Both the position numbers and the translations under genes were made by a program. A stretch of DNA of 59,849 nucleotides from an uncultured Eubacteriales bacterium (lineage in GTDB: Bacteria > Bacillota > Clostridia > Oscillospirales > Acutalibacteraceae): assembly GCA_900315605.1 (NCBI GenBank), contig OMZU01000010.1, positions 1 through 59,849 on the forward strand. Direction: 5' to 3'. Shown here in pieces: positions 3,204 to 20,896 of this stretch; position 1 is the first letter of the stretch, and each line of letters opens with the position of its first letter. The notes beneath the pieces were generated by a model. It ran no database searches, was not told where the DNA came from, and saw only the letters and a list, made by a program, of their open reading frames with translations.

Positions 3204-3461
3204 ATGTTAAATTTTTGCATTTATATTTTTATCATCTATGCTGTAAGCAATTCTGCGGCGATAATTCTTTTCGGCAGAAAAAGGCGCAGGCTGCGCCAAA
3301 GGCAAATAGCCGGCGTACCCGCTGCCAAAAGTCGCCGCGCAGCTCACGCCGCAAAAACTGTTCGGCAAAAAAGCTCTGTTCAGCTTCGGGCTACCGCCGC
3401 AAAATCGAACGATTTCAAAAAGAAAAACGCAGGACGACCCCTGCGTTTTTGTTTTGCCTAA
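3204..3461 (+). CDS. Small basic membrane protein, hypothetical
   Basis: 85 residues. ATG 3204 is preceded by a strong AGGAGGAAGG site, the best reason to accept it. One hydrophobic segment occupies about residues 3-22 (ICAIYIFII-type), followed by an Arg/Lys-rich tail (GRKRRRLRQRQ) with many Ala. I do not recognise a family. The last codons overlap a terminator hairpin at 3423-3455, which is unusual for a real gene, so the true translated product may be shorter in effect or the ORF may be spurious. It lies alone between guaB and the convergent restriction gene. Confidence 0.4.
   Translation: MLNFCIYIFIIYAVSNSAAIILFGRKRRRLRQRQIAGVPAAKSRRAAHAAKTVRQKSSVQLRATAAKSNDFKKKNAGRPLRFCFA
3423..3455. 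terminator. Bidirectional terminator
   Basis: Stem AAAAACGCAGG with CCTGCGTTTTT and a 6-nt loop, with A and T tracts on both sides, so it can end transcripts from both directions: the small ORF on + and the restriction-modification operon on -. Confidence 0.7.
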
Positions 3462-4270
3462 ATTATTTCTTGTTTATTAAATCCTGAATATGTTCCAAAG
3501 CCAAGCATATAAATTGCCATTGCGATAGCCATATCTTCAGAATCTATGTTTTGTTCAGATGACAGATTTTTTATTTCATCAAAAACCGTATCATTTGGAA
3601 CTATACTTTCCTGTAATTCATCAACCGCTTTTTTTATTACTGAAGGAAGCGTCATACACATTTGATAAAAAGCATCGTCTTGTCCTGTAACTAATGCATA
3701 AAAGCGGTCAATACTAACCCTGCGGATAAGTTTATGACCCACCTTCTTTTTGTCTACTGTAGTTTCCCATTTGATGTTTTGCGATTGTTGAGCAATCGTT
3801 TCAACCAAAAAGCAGGCACAGTCATCATCATTCAAGAGTTGATTTTGCATTTTTATAAAGGTTTTACCTGCGGATGCCGAGTTCATTGTATTATGCTTGT
3901 TTTTCATTTCAACATATACTGTGTGAACCAAGCTTTTGTCGGGTAATTCGATTCCGTCCGAGTTTTGATAAATTACATCCCACCCATTATCCGGAACAAT
4001 GCAGTTTTTTATATAACTGAAAATTCGCTGATGAAAATACCCGATATCATTATTGTTTGATTTATCTCTTTGGCGAAAAATTTCATTATCAACAATTTGT
4101 TTCCATGTGTATCTGTAAACAGTTTTGTCAAAGATCAGCTTTATTGGATCTATTGTATTTTTATTGAATCTTTTCAAATCATATGAAGCAAGCTTATCCC
4201 CATATTTTTTTATTGTTGATTTTACATGATTATAAAAGTCGGCTTCAGAAATATAACTCAGCTTCCACAT
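3458..4270 (-). CDS. Type II restriction endonuclease, Eco47II family
   Basis: 270 residues. It resembles Eco47II/Sau96I-type nucleases: KRFNKNTIDPIKLIFD near the N-terminus, DKSNNNDIGYFHQRIFSYI, then the PD-(D/E)xK-like core WDVIYQNSDGIEL and VYVEMKNKHNTMNSASAG, in which D and ExK are candidate metal ligands. Members that I know of cut GGNCC; specificity here is inferred. The start codon overlaps the stop of the upstream methylase (TAATG), so the two are translationally coupled. The pair is clearly richer in A+T than guaB and metF on either side and is probably acquired horizontally. Confidence 0.85.
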   Translation of the reverse strand: MWKLSYISEADFYNHVKSTIKKYGDKLASYDLKRFNKNTIDPIKLIFDKTVYRYTWKQIVDNEIFRQRDKSNNNDIGYFHQRIFSYIKNCIVPDNGWDVIYQNSDGIELPDKSLVHTVYVEMKNKHNTMNSASAGKTFIKMQNQLLNDDDCACFLVETIAQQSQNIKWETTVDKKKVGHKLIRRVSIDRFYALVTGQDDAFYQMCMTLPSVIKKAVDELQESIVPNDTVFDEIKNLSSEQNIDSEDMAIAMAIYMLGFGTYSGFNKQEII

Positions 4271-5490
4271 TATAGTTCCTCCAAGGAATTTTTTATTTCT
4301 TGTGCTATTTCATATGCAAGTCTTACAGGCACAGCATTGCCAATTTGCTTGTATTGTGAACATATGCTTCCTTTAAATATCCATTCATCCGGAAAACTTT
4401 GACAACGTGCGTTTTCTCTTATTGTAAAAGGTCTGGCTTCCAGAGGGTGACAACGATCGGTTTGTTTTTGACTTGGTGAAGTAAGTACAGTCAAAGACGG
4501 CTCGTCAAGACTTAGTCGGCGAAGTATTCCGGTTCTTCCACCTTCCATATTCCAGCAGCTTTTCATATATTCTTTTGCGATTTTTTCCGGAATATCACGC
4601 CAATAGCCACCCGGCGGAACAAGCTCAAATATCTTTCTTTTGTATTCGGAATACAGCGTTCCTGCGCTTTTGGGGCAGTCCAGTAATATATCCTTTAAAA
4701 CAGGCTTGTAATCATGGGGAACAGGAAATGAAAAATTTATCTTTTTTTCAATATCTTTTCGTATTCCAATTGTGATCAATCGTTCTCTTTTTTGCGCTAC
4801 TCCGTAATCCCATGCGTTTAACACTTTTTTCTGAATTGAATAACCTGTGCTTTCAAATATACCTGCTATAGTTTTGTATGTTCGCCCTCTATCGTGTGTG
4901 AGCAAGCCTCGGACATTTTCAAATAAAAACATTTTTGGCTGAAGCTGATCCAAAAATTTAGCATAGTGATAAAATAAGGTTCCGCGTGCATCTTCAAGTC
5001 CCAGACGTTTGCCGGCATAAGAAAAGCTTTGACACGGTGCACCACCTGACAACAAATCAAGCTCGCCTTTTTTTATTCCGAAAAATGATTCTAAGTCCAA
5101 AGAGGAAATATTAGCGATATCATCGTTTATTACGCGCCATTCAGGTCGATTTGATCTTAATGTATCGGAAGCGTCCTTGTCCAATTCAATCAACCCTATT
5201 GTATCAAATCCTGCTTGCTCTATTCCAAGCGCAAGCCCTCCGGCTCCTGCAAAAAGCTCTATAGTTTTTGGTTTTATCTTTACTTTGTTAGGATTTATAA
5301 ATTCAATAACATCGCTAATGTCGCAATCTAAAACCGAACATATTTTTTCAATGCTTTCAAATGAAACAGCTTCATTTTTGCCCATTCGAGCAATAACGTT
5401 AAAGCTTATATCGGCAGCATTTTTTAAATCTGTTTTATTCATATTTTTATCAATCAAGGTTTTCCACAAATTATTATAACAAACTGCCAT
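4270..5490 (-). CDS. DNA (cytosine-5) methyltransferase with N-terminal HTH
   Basis: 406 residues. All key C5-methylase motifs are visible: I FAGAGGLALGIEQAG, IV GGAPCQSFS with the catalytic Cys, VI ENVRG, VIII QKRERL, and X QIGNAVP. Residues 1-70 are an extra helix-turn-helix of the small XRE/YozG type (LKNAADISFNVIARMGKNEA, then ICSVLDCDISDVIEF). HTH-methylase fusions such as M.SsoII and M.EcoRII-type enzymes repress their own promoter, so autoregulation is likely. GGAGG precedes ATG 5490. Its promoter is at 5519-5547, with an 18-bp palindrome just beyond the -35 box. It protects the host from the coupled nuclease. Confidence 0.92.
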   Translation of the reverse strand: MAVCYNNLWKTLIDKNMNKTDLKNAADISFNVIARMGKNEAVSFESIEKICSVLDCDISDVIEFINPNKVKIKPKTIELFAGAGGLALGIEQAGFDTIGLIELDKDASDTLRSNRPEWRVINDDIANISSLDLESFFGIKKGELDLLSGGAPCQSFSYAGKRLGLEDARGTLFYHYAKFLDQLQPKMFLFENVRGLLTHDRGRTYKTIAGIFESTGYSIQKKVLNAWDYGVAQKRERLITIGIRKDIEKKINFSFPVPHDYKPVLKDILLDCPKSAGTLYSEYKRKIFELVPPGGYWRDIPEKIAKEYMKSCWNMEGGRTGILRRLSLDEPSLTVLTSPSQKQTDRCHPLEARPFTIRENARCQSFPDEWIFKGSICSQYKQIGNAVPVRLAYEIAQEIKNSLEEL

Positions 5491-5810: not shown

Positions 5811-6674
5811 ATGAAAATCACAGAGCTTTTTCAAAATCCCGGCAAGACCGTATTTTCTTTTGAGGTTTTTCCGCCGAAAAAAACCTCGCCAATCGAAAGC
5901 GTATACGACAAGCTGGGCGAGATCTGCGCGCTTGACCCCGATTTTGTGAGCGTTACCTACGGCGCAGGCGGAACCTCAAAGGACAGCCGCACGCGCGAGA
6001 TCGCCGCAAAAATAAAATATGATTTTAAGATCGAATCCGTTGCTCATCTCACCTGCGTGAACAGCACAAAAGCAGAGATCGACGAGACCCTTGACGACCT
6101 TGAAGCTCACGGGATCGAGAATATCCTCGCACTCAGGGGAGATCGTGTTGAAAATGTTGAGCCTAAAAAGGATTTTGTCTATGCCTCCGACCTTTGCGCC
6201 TATATCAAAAAGCGCGGCGGCTTTGATATTGCCGGAGCCTGCTACCCCGAGGTCCACATGGAAGCGGAGAGCGAGATCGCCGATATCCTGAACCTGAAAA
6301 AGAAGGTCGAAGCCGGCGCGACCCACCTTATCAGCCAGCTTTTCTTTGACAATTTGGCGTTCTACTCATTTGCGGAAAAAGCCAAAATCGCCTCTATCAA
6401 TGTTCCTATAGAAGCCGGTATCATGCCGGTCACAAACAAAAGCCAGATCGAGCGAATGGTTTCGCTTTGCGGCGCAAGCCTGCCGGCAAAATTTTCACGC
6501 ACTATGCAAAAATACGAAAACCGTCCCGAGGCTCTGCGAGACGCAGGCATCGCATATGCTGTTGAGCAGATAGTTGATTTGATCTCAAACGGCGTTGACG
6601 GTATTCATCTTTATACAATGAACAATCCCTATGTTGCACGAAAAATCACAGAGGCGGTGTCAAGTTTGCTGTGA
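5811..6674 (+). CDS. metF: 5,10-methylenetetrahydrofolate reductase
   Basis: 287 residues, the usual length of bacterial MetF. It reduces methylene-THF to methyl-THF, the methyl donor for methionine synthase; a FAD-containing TIM barrel. Visible motifs: FSFEVFPPKK with the catalytic Glu, SVTYGAGG, HLTCVN, ILALRGD, ACYPEVHMEA, and LISQLFFDN. GAGGTG lies upstream of ATG 5811. Its stop overlaps the GTG start of the next gene (GTGA), forming an operon with the B12-reactivation protein and MetH, so three consecutive steps of the methyl branch are co-expressed. Confidence 0.97.
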   Translation: MKITELFQNPGKTVFSFEVFPPKKTSPIESVYDKLGEICALDPDFVSVTYGAGGTSKDSRTREIAAKIKYDFKIESVAHLTCVNSTKAEIDETLDDLEAHGIENILALRGDRVENVEPKKDFVYASDLCAYIKKRGGFDIAGACYPEVHMEAESEIADILNLKKKVEAGATHLISQLFFDNLAFYSFAEKAKIASINVPIEAGIMPVTNKSQIERMVSLCGASLPAKFSRTMQKYENRPEALRDAGIAYAVEQIVDLISNGVDGIHLYTMNNPYVARKITEAVSSLL

Positions 6675-7315
6675 TAAAGCTCGAATCTCTTGACCGCGCC
6701 GAAGCCCTGCGGTATTTGGGCGGCGCAAAAACCGAGCCGGACGAAAAAATGACAAGCCTGCTCAACGATTGTGAGGCTCGGCTTCTTTCTGCTGCAAATC
6801 CCGGATATCTTTACAAAATAATCAGCCTGCCCTGCGAGTGGCTGCTCGTCGGAGAAGATATAAAAAATCACCTTGTCGGCTGCCGTTCCGCCGCGCTGAT
6901 ATGCGCCACCCTTGGCGCGGAGGTTGACAAATTGATAAGGGTCAGCCAAATCACCGATATGCCGCGCGCGGTCGTTATCAACAGCCTTGCGGCGGTCGCG
7001 ATCGAGCAGGTTTGCGACAAAATCGAAGAAAAGCTTTTCGCGATTTTTCCCGAAAGCTATTTTACCTTTCGCTACAGTCCGGGCTACGGAGATTTTCCGA
7101 TCGAGCTGCAAAAAAGCTTTTTGAGCGAGCTTGACGCTCCGCGAAAAATCGGACTCAGCGCAAATTCAAGCCATATCCTCACGCCGTCCAAGTCGGTGAC
7201 GGCGGTAATCGGGATCTCATCTCAACCCATTGAAGCAAAAAAACGCGGCTGTGCGGTCTGCAATCTGCGCAAGACCTGCCGCTACAGACGAAACGGAGAA
7301 CACTGTGGATTTTAA
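6671..7315 (+). CDS. Methionine synthase activation-domain protein
   Basis: 214 residues. It corresponds to the reactivation domain of cobalamin-dependent methionine synthase as a separate protein: RYSPGYGDFPIELQ and LTPSKSVTAVIGIS are the characteristic SAM-binding and cobalamin-contacting motifs. It presumably remethylates oxidised cob(II)alamin on the adjacent MetH, which lacks this domain. Thermotoga also splits MetH this way. The C-terminus adds a four-Cys cluster (C-x2-C-x5-C-x8-C in the region CAVCNLRKTC and EHC) not present in E. coli MetH, possibly metal-binding. Start GTG overlaps the metF stop. It overlaps the start of metH by 11 bp. Confidence 0.88.
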   Translation: MIKLESLDRAEALRYLGGAKTEPDEKMTSLLNDCEARLLSAANPGYLYKIISLPCEWLLVGEDIKNHLVGCRSAALICATLGAEVDKLIRVSQITDMPRAVVINSLAAVAIEQVCDKIEEKLFAIFPESYFTFRYSPGYGDFPIELQKSFLSELDAPRKIGLSANSSHILTPSKSVTAVIGISSQPIEAKKRGCAVCNLRKTCRYRRNGEHCGF

Positions 7316-9689
7316 AGCCTTTTTAAATAAAAAGCCCTTTATTCTGCTTGACGGAGCCATGGGCACCCTGATACAAAAAAGCGGAGCAAAATATGAGCAT
7401 GTGCCCGAAACGCTCAACATAACCTCGCCGGAGCTGATAACATCCTTTCACAAGGCTTATATCGCTGCCGGAGCGGATATCGTTTACTCAAACACCTTTG
7501 GCGCAAACGCCTACAAGCTTGCCGACTGCGGCTATTCGGTCAACGAGATAATCCGCGCCGGAGTTGCCAACGCCAAAAAAGCCTGCGAGGGCACCTCTGC
7601 GCTTGCCGCGCTGGATATCGGTCCTATAGGTATGCTCCTTGAGCCTGCCGGCTCGCTTAGATTTGAGGAGGCATACGATTATTTTAAGGAACAGATAATC
7701 GCCGGAGCCGAGGCTGATCTGATCGTGCTCGAAACGATGACCGACCTCTATGAGCTCAAGGCGGCTGTGCTTGCCGCAAGAGAAAACAGCGACAAGCCGA
7801 TCGTTGCCACAATGACCTTTGAGAGAAACGGAAGGACCTTTACCGGGGTTTCTCCCTCGGCGGCTGCGATCACCCTGACCGCTCTCGGAGTTGACGCGAT
7901 CGGCGTAAACTGCTCGCTGGGTCCCGACGAGCTTGAACCGGTCGTAAGCGAAATGTCGGGCGCGACCGCGCTTCCGCTGGTTGTAAAGGCAAACGCCGGA
8001 CTGCCCGACCCCAACAGCAACGAATACAATATTTTGCCCGACCGCTTTGCCGAATGTGTTCGCGCTCTGCTCAAATACGGCGTAAAGCTCATCGGCGGCT
8101 GCTGCGGCACAAATCCCGAATATATAGAAAAGCTCAGGCTCGCGCTTGAAACAGAGGCTTATCAGCCGCAAAGCGAGCCGGACGAGGTTATGATTTGCAG
8201 CCCGAGCAAGACCGTGGCTGTCAACGGCCCCAGGATAATCGGCGAGAGGATCAATCCCACAGGCAAAAAGCTGTTCAAGCAGGCTCTTGTCGATAACAAT
8301 ATTGACTACATTCTGACCCAGGCGATCTCACAGGTGAACGCCGGCGCGGAAATCCTTGACGTCAACGTAGGTCATCCGGAAATTGACGAAAAGGCGATGA
8401 TGACGCGCGTTATCAAGGCTATCCAGAGCGTTTGCGACGCTCCGCTGCAAATAGACAGCACAAAGCCCGAGGTTTTGGAGGCCGGGCTGCGCTGCTACAA
8501 CGGAAAGCCTATCGTAAACTCGGTGAACGGCGAAGAAAAAAGCCTTTCTACAGTTTTGCCTCTCGTAAAAAAATACGGTGCTTCTGTTGTCGGACTTACC
8601 CTTGACGAGGGAGGCATCCCCAAAACCGCCGAGGGCAGATTCGAGATCGCAAAGCGCATTGTTGAACGCGCTGAGGCGGTCGGGATCAGCAGAAAGGATG
8701 TTTTTATCGACTGTTTGACCCTGACGGTTTCCGCCGAGCAGGACGCCTGCCGCGAAACCCTGAGTGCCTTGCACAGAGTCAAAACCGAGCTGGGCTGCAA
8801 AACCTGTCTCGGCGTGTCGAACATTTCATTCGGACTGCCCAACCGCGAGCTTGTGAACAGCACATTTCTCACCATGGCTCTTGAAGAAGGGCTCGACCTT
8901 CCTATCATCAATCCCAACGCTCAGGCAATGTCGGGAGCGGTTCGCGCATTCAGGGTGCTTGCGGGCATCGACAAAAATTCCGTTGAATTTATCAGCGCGT
9001 ACAACGACGCCCCTGCCGCGCCAAAGCCTGCTCAGGCAGCAAAAGCCGACCTGCCGTCCGCGGTTTACGGCGGCTTAAAAAATGAAGCCGCAGCCGCAGT
9101 TGACGGACTGCTCAAGGACGGCGTTGACCCAATGAAGATCGTCAACGAAATGCTTGTTCCGGCTCTTGACAGGGTGGGAGAGGATTTTGAGAAAAACAAA
9201 ATCTTTCTGCCCCAGCTTATCCAAAGCGCGAACGCCGCCCAGGAGGGCTTTGAGATAATCAAAAAACACATTTCTGCCGCCGGAGACGCTCCCGTTAGCA
9301 AGGGCAAGATCATTCTTGCCACCGTCAAGGGAGACATTCACGATATCGGCAAAAATATCGTCAAGGTGCTGCTCGACAACTACGGCTACGATGTTGTTGA
9401 CCTTGGGCGCGACGTTGACCCTCAGCTCATTGTCGATACCGCCGCGGAGCAGGATATAAAAATGGTTGGGCTATCCGCACTTATGACAACTACGCTTCCC
9501 AGCATGGAGGAAACCATCCGCCTTATCCGAGCCGACGGCAGGCTGCAAAACCCGGACGGAAGCAGCAAGTGCGTTGTGTTTGTTGGCGGCGCGGTGCTCA
9601 CGCCCGAGTATTCCGAAAAAATCGGCGCGGACTATTACTGCCGCGACGCCAAGGAAAGCGTTGATACCGCCAAAAAGGTCTTGGGATAA
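7305..9689 (+). CDS. metH: Cobalamin-dependent methionine synthase, short form
   Basis: 794 residues. It transfers methyl from methyl-THF to homocysteine through cobalamin. Domains: homocysteine-binding barrel (about 1-295; LLDGAMGTLIQK, VNCSLGP and GGCCGTNP with the zinc Cys residues), pterin-binding barrel (about 315-590; GERINPTGKK, ILDVNVG, DSTKPEVLEAG), four-helix cap and B12-binding domain (about 605-794; DIHDIGKNIV with the cobalt-ligand His). The activation domain of full-length MetH is missing and is encoded by the preceding gene. The frame is open from 7230, but GTG 7305 has GGAG upstream and gives the family's N-terminus. A bidirectional terminator follows. Confidence 0.95.
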   Translation: MDFKAFLNKKPFILLDGAMGTLIQKSGAKYEHVPETLNITSPELITSFHKAYIAAGADIVYSNTFGANAYKLADCGYSVNEIIRAGVANAKKACEGTSALAALDIGPIGMLLEPAGSLRFEEAYDYFKEQIIAGAEADLIVLETMTDLYELKAAVLAARENSDKPIVATMTFERNGRTFTGVSPSAAAITLTALGVDAIGVNCSLGPDELEPVVSEMSGATALPLVVKANAGLPDPNSNEYNILPDRFAECVRALLKYGVKLIGGCCGTNPEYIEKLRLALETEAYQPQSEPDEVMICSPSKTVAVNGPRIIGERINPTGKKLFKQALVDNNIDYILTQAISQVNAGAEILDVNVGHPEIDEKAMMTRVIKAIQSVCDAPLQIDSTKPEVLEAGLRCYNGKPIVNSVNGEEKSLSTVLPLVKKYGASVVGLTLDEGGIPKTAEGRFEIAKRIVERAEAVGISRKDVFIDCLTLTVSAEQDACRETLSALHRVKTELGCKTCLGVSNISFGLPNRELVNSTFLTMALEEGLDLPIINPNAQAMSGAVRAFRVLAGIDKNSVEFISAYNDAPAAPKPAQAAKADLPSAVYGGLKNEAAAAVDGLLKDGVDPMKIVNEMLVPALDRVGEDFEKNKIFLPQLIQSANAAQEGFEIIKKHISAAGDAPVSKGKIILATVKGDIHDIGKNIVKVLLDNYGYDVVDLGRDVDPQLIVDTAAEQDIKMVGLSALMTTTLPSMEETIRLIRADGRLQNPDGSSKCVVFVGGAVLTPEYSEKIGADYYCRDAKESVDTAKKVLG

Positions 9690-19042: not shown

Positions 19043-19085
19043 TTAAGGCAACACCGCATAATTCAGGTGTGCGGTATTGCCTTAA
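19043..19085. repeat. GGCAATACCGC-family palindrome in the MerR gene end
   Basis: Near-perfect copy with arms TTAAGGCAACACCGC and GCGGTATTGCCTTAA. Its right half lies within the 3' end of the minus-strand MerR gene and encodes that protein's last residues and stop codon. Confidence 0.8.
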
Positions 19086-19794
19086 AATAATTTTTGATAC
19101 AAGCCGAAACAAACTCCGCTGTGCCCTCGCCGTGCCGGTCGATGTTTTTAAGGAAACGCTCGTCGGCGACATACATCTGTCCCAAGCCTTTGAGAATTTC
19201 ATCTGTGCAGGTATAGAAGTTGTCTGTGATACACTGCTGTAATTTTTCTGCCATGATTTTTGCCGGTTCGCTTTCGGGTGAAGCCCCGGCTCGGTTCAGT
19301 TCGGCAAATTCTTCAAAAACCGCGTCGAGCAAGGGAGCCGACTTGCTAAAATCTGTGTTGCGGCTCTCACTCTCTTTGTATGCGTCGGTATTGCCCCAAC
19401 GCTGTTTGGCTTCCTCTGCGTATTGATTTTTAAGAGCTTCGTATTCGTTTTTCGTTTTCATAAAACCCATTCCTTCCCCCACACTGTCGAGCGTCGCGAT
19501 CAACTGCTCCAGCCGTTCTTTTTTCGCAAGCAGCAGCTTTCGCTGACGTGACAGTGCCTGTTGTTTGTCGTAGTCGGGTGAGGATAAGATCTCCGCGATC
19601 GTTTTTAGCGAAAAATCCAGTTCACGGTAAAACAAAATCTCCTGCATACGCTCAAATGCATTCTCGTCATAAAAGCGGTAGCCTGTCTGCGCGTCTACCT
19701 CTGACGGTTTCAGCAAACCGATCTCGTCATAGTAGTGGAGCGTGCGCACGCTCACGCCTGTCAGCTGAGCAAATTCTTTGATCTGCATTTTCAT
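19063..19794 (-). CDS. MerR family regulator with TipAS-like domain
   Basis: 243 residues. Residues 1-70 are a MerR winged helix (IKEFAQLTGVSVRTLHYYDE, IGLLKPSEVDAQTGYRFYDE). A long coiled coil follows (about 75-115), then a C-terminal TipAS-like drug-recognition domain with AEEAKQRWGNTDAYKES. Such proteins activate multidrug-efflux or self genes on binding thiopeptides or similar ligands. The start at 19794 is chosen for GAGGTG eight bases upstream. The last residues, KAIPHT, and the stop are encoded by a palindromic repeat element (19043-19085), so the ancestral C-terminus was probably longer or different. The divergent promoter at 19881 serves the opposite strand. Confidence 0.88.
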   Translation of the reverse strand: MKMQIKEFAQLTGVSVRTLHYYDEIGLLKPSEVDAQTGYRFYDENAFERMQEILFYRELDFSLKTIAEILSSPDYDKQQALSRQRKLLLAKKERLEQLIATLDSVGEGMGFMKTKNEYEALKNQYAEEAKQRWGNTDAYKESESRNTDFSKSAPLLDAVFEEFAELNRAGASPESEPAKIMAEKLQQCITDNFYTCTDEILKGLGQMYVADERFLKNIDRHGEGTAEFVSACIKNYFKAIPHT

Positions 19795-19880
19795 TTTTCT
19801 CACCTCGGCTCTATGATAACCTATGACGCAACGTCAAGGTCAAGTGTTTTCCAAAAATATTTTATAACAAATCTCCGGTG

Positions 19881-19909
19881 TTGACAAGTGCCGCCGACAG
19901 CGTTATAAT
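19881..19909 (+). promoter_or_regulatory. Consensus promoter of the riboswitch transcript
   Basis: TTGACA (19881-19886), 17 bp, TATAAT (19904-19909), a perfect consensus. Transcription would start near 19916, the 5' edge of the aptamer. Confidence 0.8.
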
Positions 19910-19916
19910 AGAACCA

Positions 19917-20001
19917 ACCTATAAAGAGTGCGCGAGAGACAAGCTCGTTGACCGCACACCAACCTGCCGCGCGGTAAGGTGGTAATGCTTGAATGATGGG
20001 T
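19917..20001 (+). promoter_or_regulatory. SAM-clan (S-box / SAM-I-IV-like) riboswitch aptamer
   Basis: An 85-nt fold can be read by eye. P1: ACCTAT (19917-19922) with ATGGGT (19996-20001). AAAGAG junction. P2: GTGCG and CGAG pairing with CTCG and CGCAC, with a GTTGAC internal loop as in the S-box kink-turn arm. P3: CCaACC with GGTGG, which keeps the bulged A of the S-box GCaACC/GGTGC helix but with swapped base pairs. Then TAAT. Pseudoknot: P2 loop CAAG with CTTG at about 19988. GGGTGT (19998-20003) can instead pair with ACGCCC of the terminator, an antiterminator. Low SAM should therefore permit expression of the 89-aa gene downstream. Identity rests on motif order, not on a covariance search. 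Confidence 0.75.
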
Positions 20002-20018
20002 GTGCATAAATGTTTTTG

Positions 20019-20046
20019 ACGCCCGTCTGACGATGGGCGTTTTTCT
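20019..20046 (+). terminator. Regulated terminator of the riboswitch
   Basis: ACGCCC (20019-20024) pairs with GGGCGT (20035-20040), followed by TTTTTCTTTT. It lies between the aptamer and the gene, so it can only be an attenuator. Confidence 0.85.
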
Positions 20047-20085
20047 TTTGTCCTCTTTAGGGTAATAATTTTCGGAGGAATGAAA

Positions 20086-20355
20086 ATGAAAACGATCGAA
20101 AGTCTTATCAACGCAAACAAAAAGGTCTATGTACGCATGAGCAGCGAGGAGATCTGCCGGCGGTTTTACGCGCAGGCAGAACGCGAGGGATTCACCTTTG
20201 GAGGTAAAAAACCGACCGAAAAGCACCCCTCGGATCTGATCGCCGTACTGCCTGACAAAGCACTGTGCTATGTTGGCACTTTCGGCAGGATCGCCTCGCA
20301 GTCGGGAGCGGGGAATGTGGTCGTGGTGGATGGAGAGGAGCTGTTTGAACCGTAA
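20086..20355 (+). CDS. 89-aa protein of unknown function, riboswitch-controlled
   Basis: 89 residues from ATG 20086; CGGAGGA is six bases upstream, while the in-frame ATG at 20080 touches the site. Sequence features: TIESLINANKKVYVRMSS, a predicted helix EEICRRFYAQAEREGFTFGG, then KKPTEKHPSDLIAVLPD, ALCYVGTFGRIASQSGAGN and VVVVDGEELF. It looks like a small soluble alpha/beta protein of a kind seen as conserved hypotheticals in Firmicutes; I know no assigned role. It is the only gene on a transcript that starts with a SAM-clan riboswitch and terminator, which suggests a link to methionine, SAM or methylation. It is convergent with spoVAE. Confidence 0.75.
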   Translation: MKTIESLINANKKVYVRMSSEEICRRFYAQAEREGFTFGGKKPTEKHPSDLIAVLPDKALCYVGTFGRIASQSGAGNVVVVDGEELFEP

Positions 20356-20821: not shown

Positions 20822-20896
20822 TGTAGGGTCGCACACATGGGTGCGACCTCGGAACACAATGGCTTTTAGGTCGCACACACGGGTGCGACCCTACGA
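20822..20896. repeat. Inverted pair of GTAGGGTCGCAC palindromes
   Basis: Two palindromic elements face each other: GTAGGGTCGCACACATGGGT with TCGGAAC, then GGTCGCACACACGGGTGCGA ending CCCTACG. Relatives are at 172-208, 27736-27797 and 41488-41520. No gene occupies 20767-21063. A TATAAT at 21023-21028 may be the -10 box of the following operon. Confidence 0.65.

Follow-up and report, generated by a model that had tools for sequence, protein, structure and literature searches.

Control of methionine and SAM genes is the textbook role of SAM-I riboswitches, and the locus described here raises the question of what such a switch may be doing in front of a small orphan gene. The locus lies in a 59,849-nucleotide stretch of DNA from an uncultured Eubacteriales bacterium (OMZU01000010.1), which was analyzed whole and which we call the window. 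On its plus strand, a leader and a gene for an 89-aa protein sit between a divergent MerR/TipAS regulator (19063-19803, minus strand; Pfam MerR_1 and TipAS) and a minus-strand SpoVAC/SpoVAEB gene (Pfam). The perfect TTGACA-17-TATAAT promoter reported in an earlier note on this DNA is there in the letters (19881-19909, with TTGACA at 19881-19886 and TATAAT at 19904-19909), and in an alignment of nine leaders GTTGACA was invariant and the -10 element was TATAAT or TATACT. The gene (20086-20355) starts at ATG 20086, 89 codons ahead of a stop at 20353-20355, and is preceded by a Shine-Dalgarno sequence, GGAGG, at 20074-20078. The ORF caller begins the gene two codons upstream; we preferred ATG 20086 because the earlier start is too near the Shine-Dalgarno. 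From TATAAT to ATG there are 176 nt, 87 of which form the aptamer, and the earlier figure of an 85-nt leader has to be corrected accordingly. The family of the 89-aa protein is referred to as F1, a label introduced in this analysis. Past the gene, at 20826-20895, reading of the letters revealed repeated units resembling GTCGCACCCATGTGTGCGACC.

When the whole window was scanned on both strands, the Rfam SAM-I model (RF00162) matched 19916-20002 with 51.9 bits against a gathering score of 44.4 (E 4.5e-9), and the only other match above gathering score was 5S rRNA. This significant match bears out the SAM-clan switch in S-box arrangement that had been read from the letters. A permissive scan of 801 bases displayed RF00162 as the sole clan member, one weaker overlapping clan match not being displayed. 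The aptamer retains P1 (19917-19922/19996-20001), P2 with its kink-turn (P2a 19928-19932/19953-19957; P2b 19936-19938/19944-19946), P3 (19958-19968/19973-19983), the P2-loop pseudoknot (19940-19943/19988-19991) and the pocket letters, with all stem and pseudoknot coordinates verified against the sequence. The P2 arm has kink-turn spacing, and the CAAG in its loop is paired to CTTG in J3/4; this pseudoknot and a compensatory change in P3, both claimed before, are present. The earlier description of the switch core therefore stands, and what it omits is the loss of P4, a strand at 20051-20062, the link to phages and the other gene families behind the same leader. P4 is the usual peripheral element of SAM-I, and the assignment to RF00162 is based on the curated score and the core. 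Here, the P1 3' strand starts just four bases (19992-19995) after the pseudoknot strand, and so there is no space for P4.

To judge the conservation of this architecture, we used an alignment (A7) of 55 distinct P4-less aptamers, namely that of the window and 54 of 58 distinct sequences, with L006, L011, L012 and L093 excluded. The spacing between the pseudoknot and the P1 3' strand is also short in the remaining rows. Pair cells were standard in 95.4%, and double changes occurred in 14 of 28 pairs against at most three in slid controls, a comparison in which related sequences are counted repeatedly, so that the shuffles do not amount to probabilities. All four pseudoknot pairs co-vary, with 100% of cells paired, and P1, P2a/P2b and P3 are 86.4 to 100% paired, with at least one double-change pair in each helix; checked for loss of pairing, the orthologous leaders were thus found to keep P1, P3 and the pseudoknot, with co-variation. 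A chance match is ruled out by the E value together with these conserved, co-varying leaders. Long RF00162 matches (119-124 nt) in L014, L020 and L025 had suggested a P4, but they borrow the GATGGG or GATAGG of the terminator as P1 3' strand, and these leaders fit like the others when read P4-less.

Other members of the clan resemble the leader in part. In the available portion of PMC6890682, SAM-IV is described as lacking P4 and keeping PK-1, and the present leader shares both features. However, SAM-IV has PK-2, a hairpin P5 and a four-nucleotide turn, whereas the present leaders keep the SAM-I kink-turn spacing, and their P3 loop varies in sequence and length (A7); on reading the leaders we noticed no partner for a PK-2. 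In SAM-I/IV, as described in the same portion of PMC6890682, P2 is undivided, PK-1 is absent and P4 is present; this riboswitch shares the common core of the clan and is otherwise the opposite of the present leader, with its kink-turned P2, PK-1 and missing P4. Identity with SAM-IV or SAM-I/IV was rejected, as RF00162 scores best and the kink-turn and PK-1 are both present. With SAM-I, the leader has in common P1, the kink-turned P2, P3, the P2-loop pseudoknot, the pocket letters, the terminator/antiterminator and a score above cut-off. By curated score and core it is thus classed as a SAM-I riboswitch, an unusual one that differs from other SAM-I members in the loss of P4, in its predicted second platform after the terminator and in its targets, which are mostly small orphan (often phage) genes and not met genes.

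How might this leader control the gene? An intrinsic terminator, conserved in the alignment of nine leaders, occupies 20019-20044, with a stem at 20019-20027/20032-20040 and a U-tract (local fold -15.2 kcal/mol). Its 5' arm, ACGCCCGTC (20019-20027), can pair instead with GATGGGTGT (19995-20003), which includes the P1 3' strand, in an antiterminator spanning 19995-20027 (local fold -14.5 kcal/mol); an alternative pairing between P1 and terminator had also been noticed before. After the terminator, most leaders carry CTCTTTATAGG or a variant, represented in the window by TCCTCTTTAGGG at 20051-20062. Segments of this type match the P1 5' strand together with J1/2 by complementarity, and with their 5' half they match the Shine-Dalgarno as well; in the window, GAGGA (20075-20079) is able to pair with TCCTC (20051-20055). 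We consider it probable that this P4-less SAM-I riboswitch turns off its monocistronic small gene at high SAM by two means, termination and masking of the Shine-Dalgarno. With SAM bound, P1 would hold, the terminator would form and most transcription would stop, and in any read-through mRNA the Shine-Dalgarno would be masked by the 20051-20062 strand. Without SAM, the P1 3' strand would pair with the 5' arm of the terminator, allowing transcription to continue, and the freed P1 5' strand would pair with the 20051-20062 strand, leaving the Shine-Dalgarno unmasked. Sequence comparison establishes the aptamer, the terminator and the antiterminator, as well as the two alternative pairings and the fact that these co-vary; we infer SAM as ligand, the OFF logic and the two-tier action.

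The pairings of the post-terminator strand were assessed by duplex and permutation tests in 56 of 59 leaders, three without a clear segment being dropped and seven segments being placed by hand. The P1 5' strand and the segment paired with a mean of -9.92 kcal/mol, compared with -4.50 (sd 0.22) for dinucleotide-shuffled sequences (n=56) and -8.57 (sd 0.19) for permuted partners, and the segment and the Shine-Dalgarno region with -11.84 kcal/mol, compared with -8.29 (sd 0.33) for permuted partners (56 leaders). In both tests 0 of 5000 permutations reached the value of the true partners, counts that overstate independence because the sequences are related. An ordinary single-tier SAM-I attenuator could also produce complementarity of this kind, as a by-product of a conserved purine-rich Shine-Dalgarno facing an equally conserved AAAGAG: since the Shine-Dalgarno and J1/2 are both purine-rich, one pyrimidine strand fits both, and permuted partners already reach -8.57 and -8.29 kcal/mol. 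We regard this explanation as unlikely. Not only do the leaders' own partners beat permuted ones in both tests, but variant P1 strands are matched downstream, ACCAT by ATGG (L098, L099, L103 and L106) and CTATC by GATAG or similar (L094, L101 and L019, with L024 as an exception). Moreover, classical metK leaders show no such pairing as a group (-4.33 versus -3.79 kcal/mol shuffled in the 26 assessable of 30, near the shuffled level), with three of the 26 at -9 or lower (L072, L083 and L064).

Eight small-gene leaders obtained after the idea had formed gave a mean of -9.6 kcal/mol compared with -4.8 for shuffled sequences; in six of them fewer than 2.5% of shuffles reached the value, and L113, where the segment is probably misplaced, and L124 failed. 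Anti-P1 pairing was weak (-5.2 or weaker) in L059, L023, L017, L024 and L061. In a folding model that ignores ligand, pseudoknot and co-transcription, forcing P1 reduced the unpaired probability of the Shine-Dalgarno in 44 of 56 leaders, the mean falling from 0.48 to 0.15 and the window value from 0.82 when free to 0.04. Access was not reduced in the other 12, among them L017, L059, L061, L097, one of L098 and the metK leader L103 (0.56 to 0.63), whose lack of Shine-Dalgarno masking favors the single-tier alternative. Of two other metK leaders, L126 has strong anti-P1 pairing and L129 does not. Riboswitches with a ribosome-binding site inside the terminator are described as dual transcription/translation attenuation in the accessible part of PMC2258182; here, in contrast, terminator and Shine-Dalgarno hairpin are separate and would be coupled via the P1 5' strand. 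A post-terminator strand complementary to both the P1 5' arm and the Shine-Dalgarno, with both predicted pairings co-varying, is the new element of the present leader.

We then considered the ligand. Of the three SAM-I sites in the host genome, one retains P4 and precedes metK (TIGR01034), and the other two, both P4-less, precede F1 paralogues. P4-less aptamers of very similar sequence precede metK in three genomes, G744 (TIGR01034, 577.9 bits), G163 and G112 (both by phmmer with the host's MetK). P4-less relatives this close in front of metK make SAM the likely ligand of the P4-less aptamer. A pocket that was kept while its ligand drifted to a SAM relative, such as SAH or another adenosyl compound, would suit a phage signal, and the loss of P4, the mostly non-methionine targets and a G-C to C-G flip of the P3 pair next to the pocket, which 11 of the 55 aptamers show, that of the window included, could be taken in its favor. 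We find such drift highly improbable given the metK relatives, and the flip itself is compensatory, with adjoining letters invariant or nearly so (A7). With SAM as ligand, the arrangement suggests that F1-type genes are switched on when the cell is short of this methyl donor. Short metK leaders from other families of the order (L130, L131 and L133-L138) also look P4-less, and their sequence differs from the phage type. As stated before, the methionine genes of the window have no such switch: no SAM-clan match above threshold was found for metF (TIGR00676) or for the ORF after it (5811-9689), which we take to be metH. Just before metF, on the minus strand, lies a DNA cytosine-5 methyltransferase (3458-5490; TIGR00675), adjoined by an ORF of 270 aa that is perhaps its restriction partner.

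The F1 protein resisted naming by sequence or fold. In agreement with the view of the target as an orphan, F1 had no Pfam or NCBIfam match at E up to 1 and one unconvincing PHROG match, to a family of unknown function (E 0.11); of the members, only L059 showed similarity to a Pfam domain, with an E of 0.006 that falls short of the cut-off. Nothing was found in PADLOC (E up to 0.1), nor by the F1 profile among PDB sequences. AlphaFold2 with 31 sequences gave a prediction with pLDDT 88.6 (71.6 to 88.6 over five models) and pTM 0.78, for which the best PDB match was not convincing (E 0.26) and the best BFVD matches were uncharacterized phage proteins (best E 0.0023, TM up to 0.65); neither set names a function. 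Aligned members are about 86-114 aa long, a form in G736 has 170 aa, and L7, Y15, F27, A31, E34, G35, G64, G67 and D82 (window numbering) are invariant or nearly so.

The same leader does precede homologues of the protein, as the earlier note had led one to ask: an over-threshold SAM-I match lies upstream at 19 of 21 F1 loci, with a weak one at another locus and none at the last. A scan of genome contigs found seven relatives, all seven with RF00162 above threshold upstream. Using tblastn, we found nine matches in eight of 295 genomes of the order, eight with leaders above threshold and one (L016) at 30.1 bits. A profile search of 391 genomes of the class gave seven matches in six genomes; four were new, L023-L025 with leaders above threshold and L026, a partial weak protein match (E 7e-4), with no leader match. 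The two genome collections used may share genomes. F1 was not found in the plasmids searched, and a search of 50,697 phage records found a homologue (39% identity) in just one, Ruminococcus phage NatCom_28274, where the switch scores 59.9 bits.

Searches that started from the leader widened this picture. A leader pattern, biased toward F1 loci because it was built from F1 leaders, matched 34 viral contigs, 26 of which have F1 next (17 distinct proteins; 22 and a further three by HMM, and L057, a repeat of L055). Most of the others have an unrelated small orphan after the leader: 130 aa in L029, 106 aa in L033, 150 aa in L037, 56 aa in L061, and one other family, F2, in L045 and L054. L060 has a 246-aa ORF farther from the leader, and no ORF was seen in L056. 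In the host family, RF00162 matched in 95 of 120 genomes, with high and lower score bands. Among the best 30 places, 29 matched metK by tblastn and L077 did not. We examined 24 low-band or outlying sites; four were not P4-less and precede metK, and the 20 P4-less ones are followed by F1 (12, two sharing one gene), F2 (three), metK (one), no ORF (one) and three other proteins, of 116 aa, of 155 aa and an N-formylglutamate amidohydrolase (PF05013). The last (L093:2913-3680, minus strand) is the sole named enzyme besides MetK seen behind a P4-less leader. Two P4-less leaders stand in tandem about 600 bp apart in L094 (3117-3208 and 3711-3802, minus strand), with one F1 gene behind the second, and that at L098:3409-3502 (minus strand) has nothing behind it but a very short reading frame, its neighboring leader having F1. 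A model trained on A7 (R2) matched 111 of the 295 order genomes at E 1e-7 or better. Of 30 R2 loci examined, 28 had a recognizable, correctly placed core, followed by metK (14), F1 (six, all known from the earlier searches), F2 (two) and others or none (six). One genome, G151, has three such leaders by R2, and L119 and L121 have another small-protein family (83-104 aa) behind the same leader type. Carried by phages and prophages, this leader type is used by several small-protein families that are unrelated to one another.

The two F1 copies of the host genome lie in different settings. That of the window is, by synteny, a fixed chromosomal copy, because the window and L006-L012 share the same MerR/TipAS gene, oriented divergently to F1; in L013 a 57% homologue of that gene lies near F1, on the other side. 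The second copy (contig C69) has terminase and portal genes at a distance of about 17 kb and is surrounded by HsdM and two further methylases, and viral contig L047 carries an identical F1 plus HsdM. From this terminase/portal neighborhood and the viral counterpart, the C69 copy is placed in a prophage. The fixed site beside the MerR/TipAS gene and the concentration of differences at third codon positions (12/9/34 by codon position, window versus L007) would suit a protein that serves the host's methionine or SAM supply as a housekeeping function and that phages merely acquired. We think this rather improbable, as F1 is thinly spread (8 of the 295 order genomes and 6 of the 391 class genomes) and lies behind the leader in 26 viral contigs, and the same leader also serves unrelated small proteins.

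Methylases recur near these leaders. With five methyltransferase queries drawn from the same leader loci, the raw counts were 21 of 58 loci with a match, 19 of them within 700 bp; the match at L043, at a contig end, spans only 28 residues. Since 18 of the 19 near matches, all at viral or phage loci, share one kind of C5 methylase within 700 bp of F1, this adjacency looks like the mark of one phage lineage. A different C5 methylase lies near F2 in L045, and the five queries found no methyltransferase at L006-L012, the loci syntenic with the window. In G755 (contig 11; L106, L142 and L143), a P4-less switch and a 155-aa orphan come directly after brxL, at the end of a BREX run of brxC, a methylase, pglZ and brxL. 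Phage SAM lyases are known to defeat BREX and type I restriction. Phage carriage, the methylases of one lineage and the BREX-end member together suggest a conflict over DNA methylation. From this context and the SAM lyases, we tentatively raise the possibility of a SAM-depletion alarm borne by clostridial mobile elements, in which phages, prophages and a single BREX operon may have put unrelated small proteins under a P4-less two-tier SAM-I switch, to be expressed only when SAM collapses, for instance exhausted or destroyed by methylation-based defense or anti-defense, and to act in restriction, BREX or their inhibition.

Riboswitches have precedents in phages and prophages, including a glutamine riboswitch in phage Melnitz (available text of PMC9004378) and c-di-GMP-I riboswitches in C. 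difficile prophages (available text of PMC11477304); the present case differs in its ligand and in that a single leader type stands before genes for several small proteins unrelated to one another. In C. difficile, the same portion of PMC11477304 places SAM-I upstream of genes for methionine and SAM only. Among the matches listed in the open-license literature, there was no SAM-I family carried by phages in front of small orphans, nor is the present system described in the available portions of PMC6890682, PMC8545432, PMC9004378, PMC2258182, PMC8190616 and PMC11477304. A P4-less SAM-I riboswitch that travels with phages, governs small proteins of no known role and uses the P1 5' strand to link termination with masking of the ribosome site would widen the known uses of this class, and its P4-less form would give structural biology a minimal SAM-I architecture. 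It would also offer a way into what orphan phage proteins do, as proteins wanted at low SAM.
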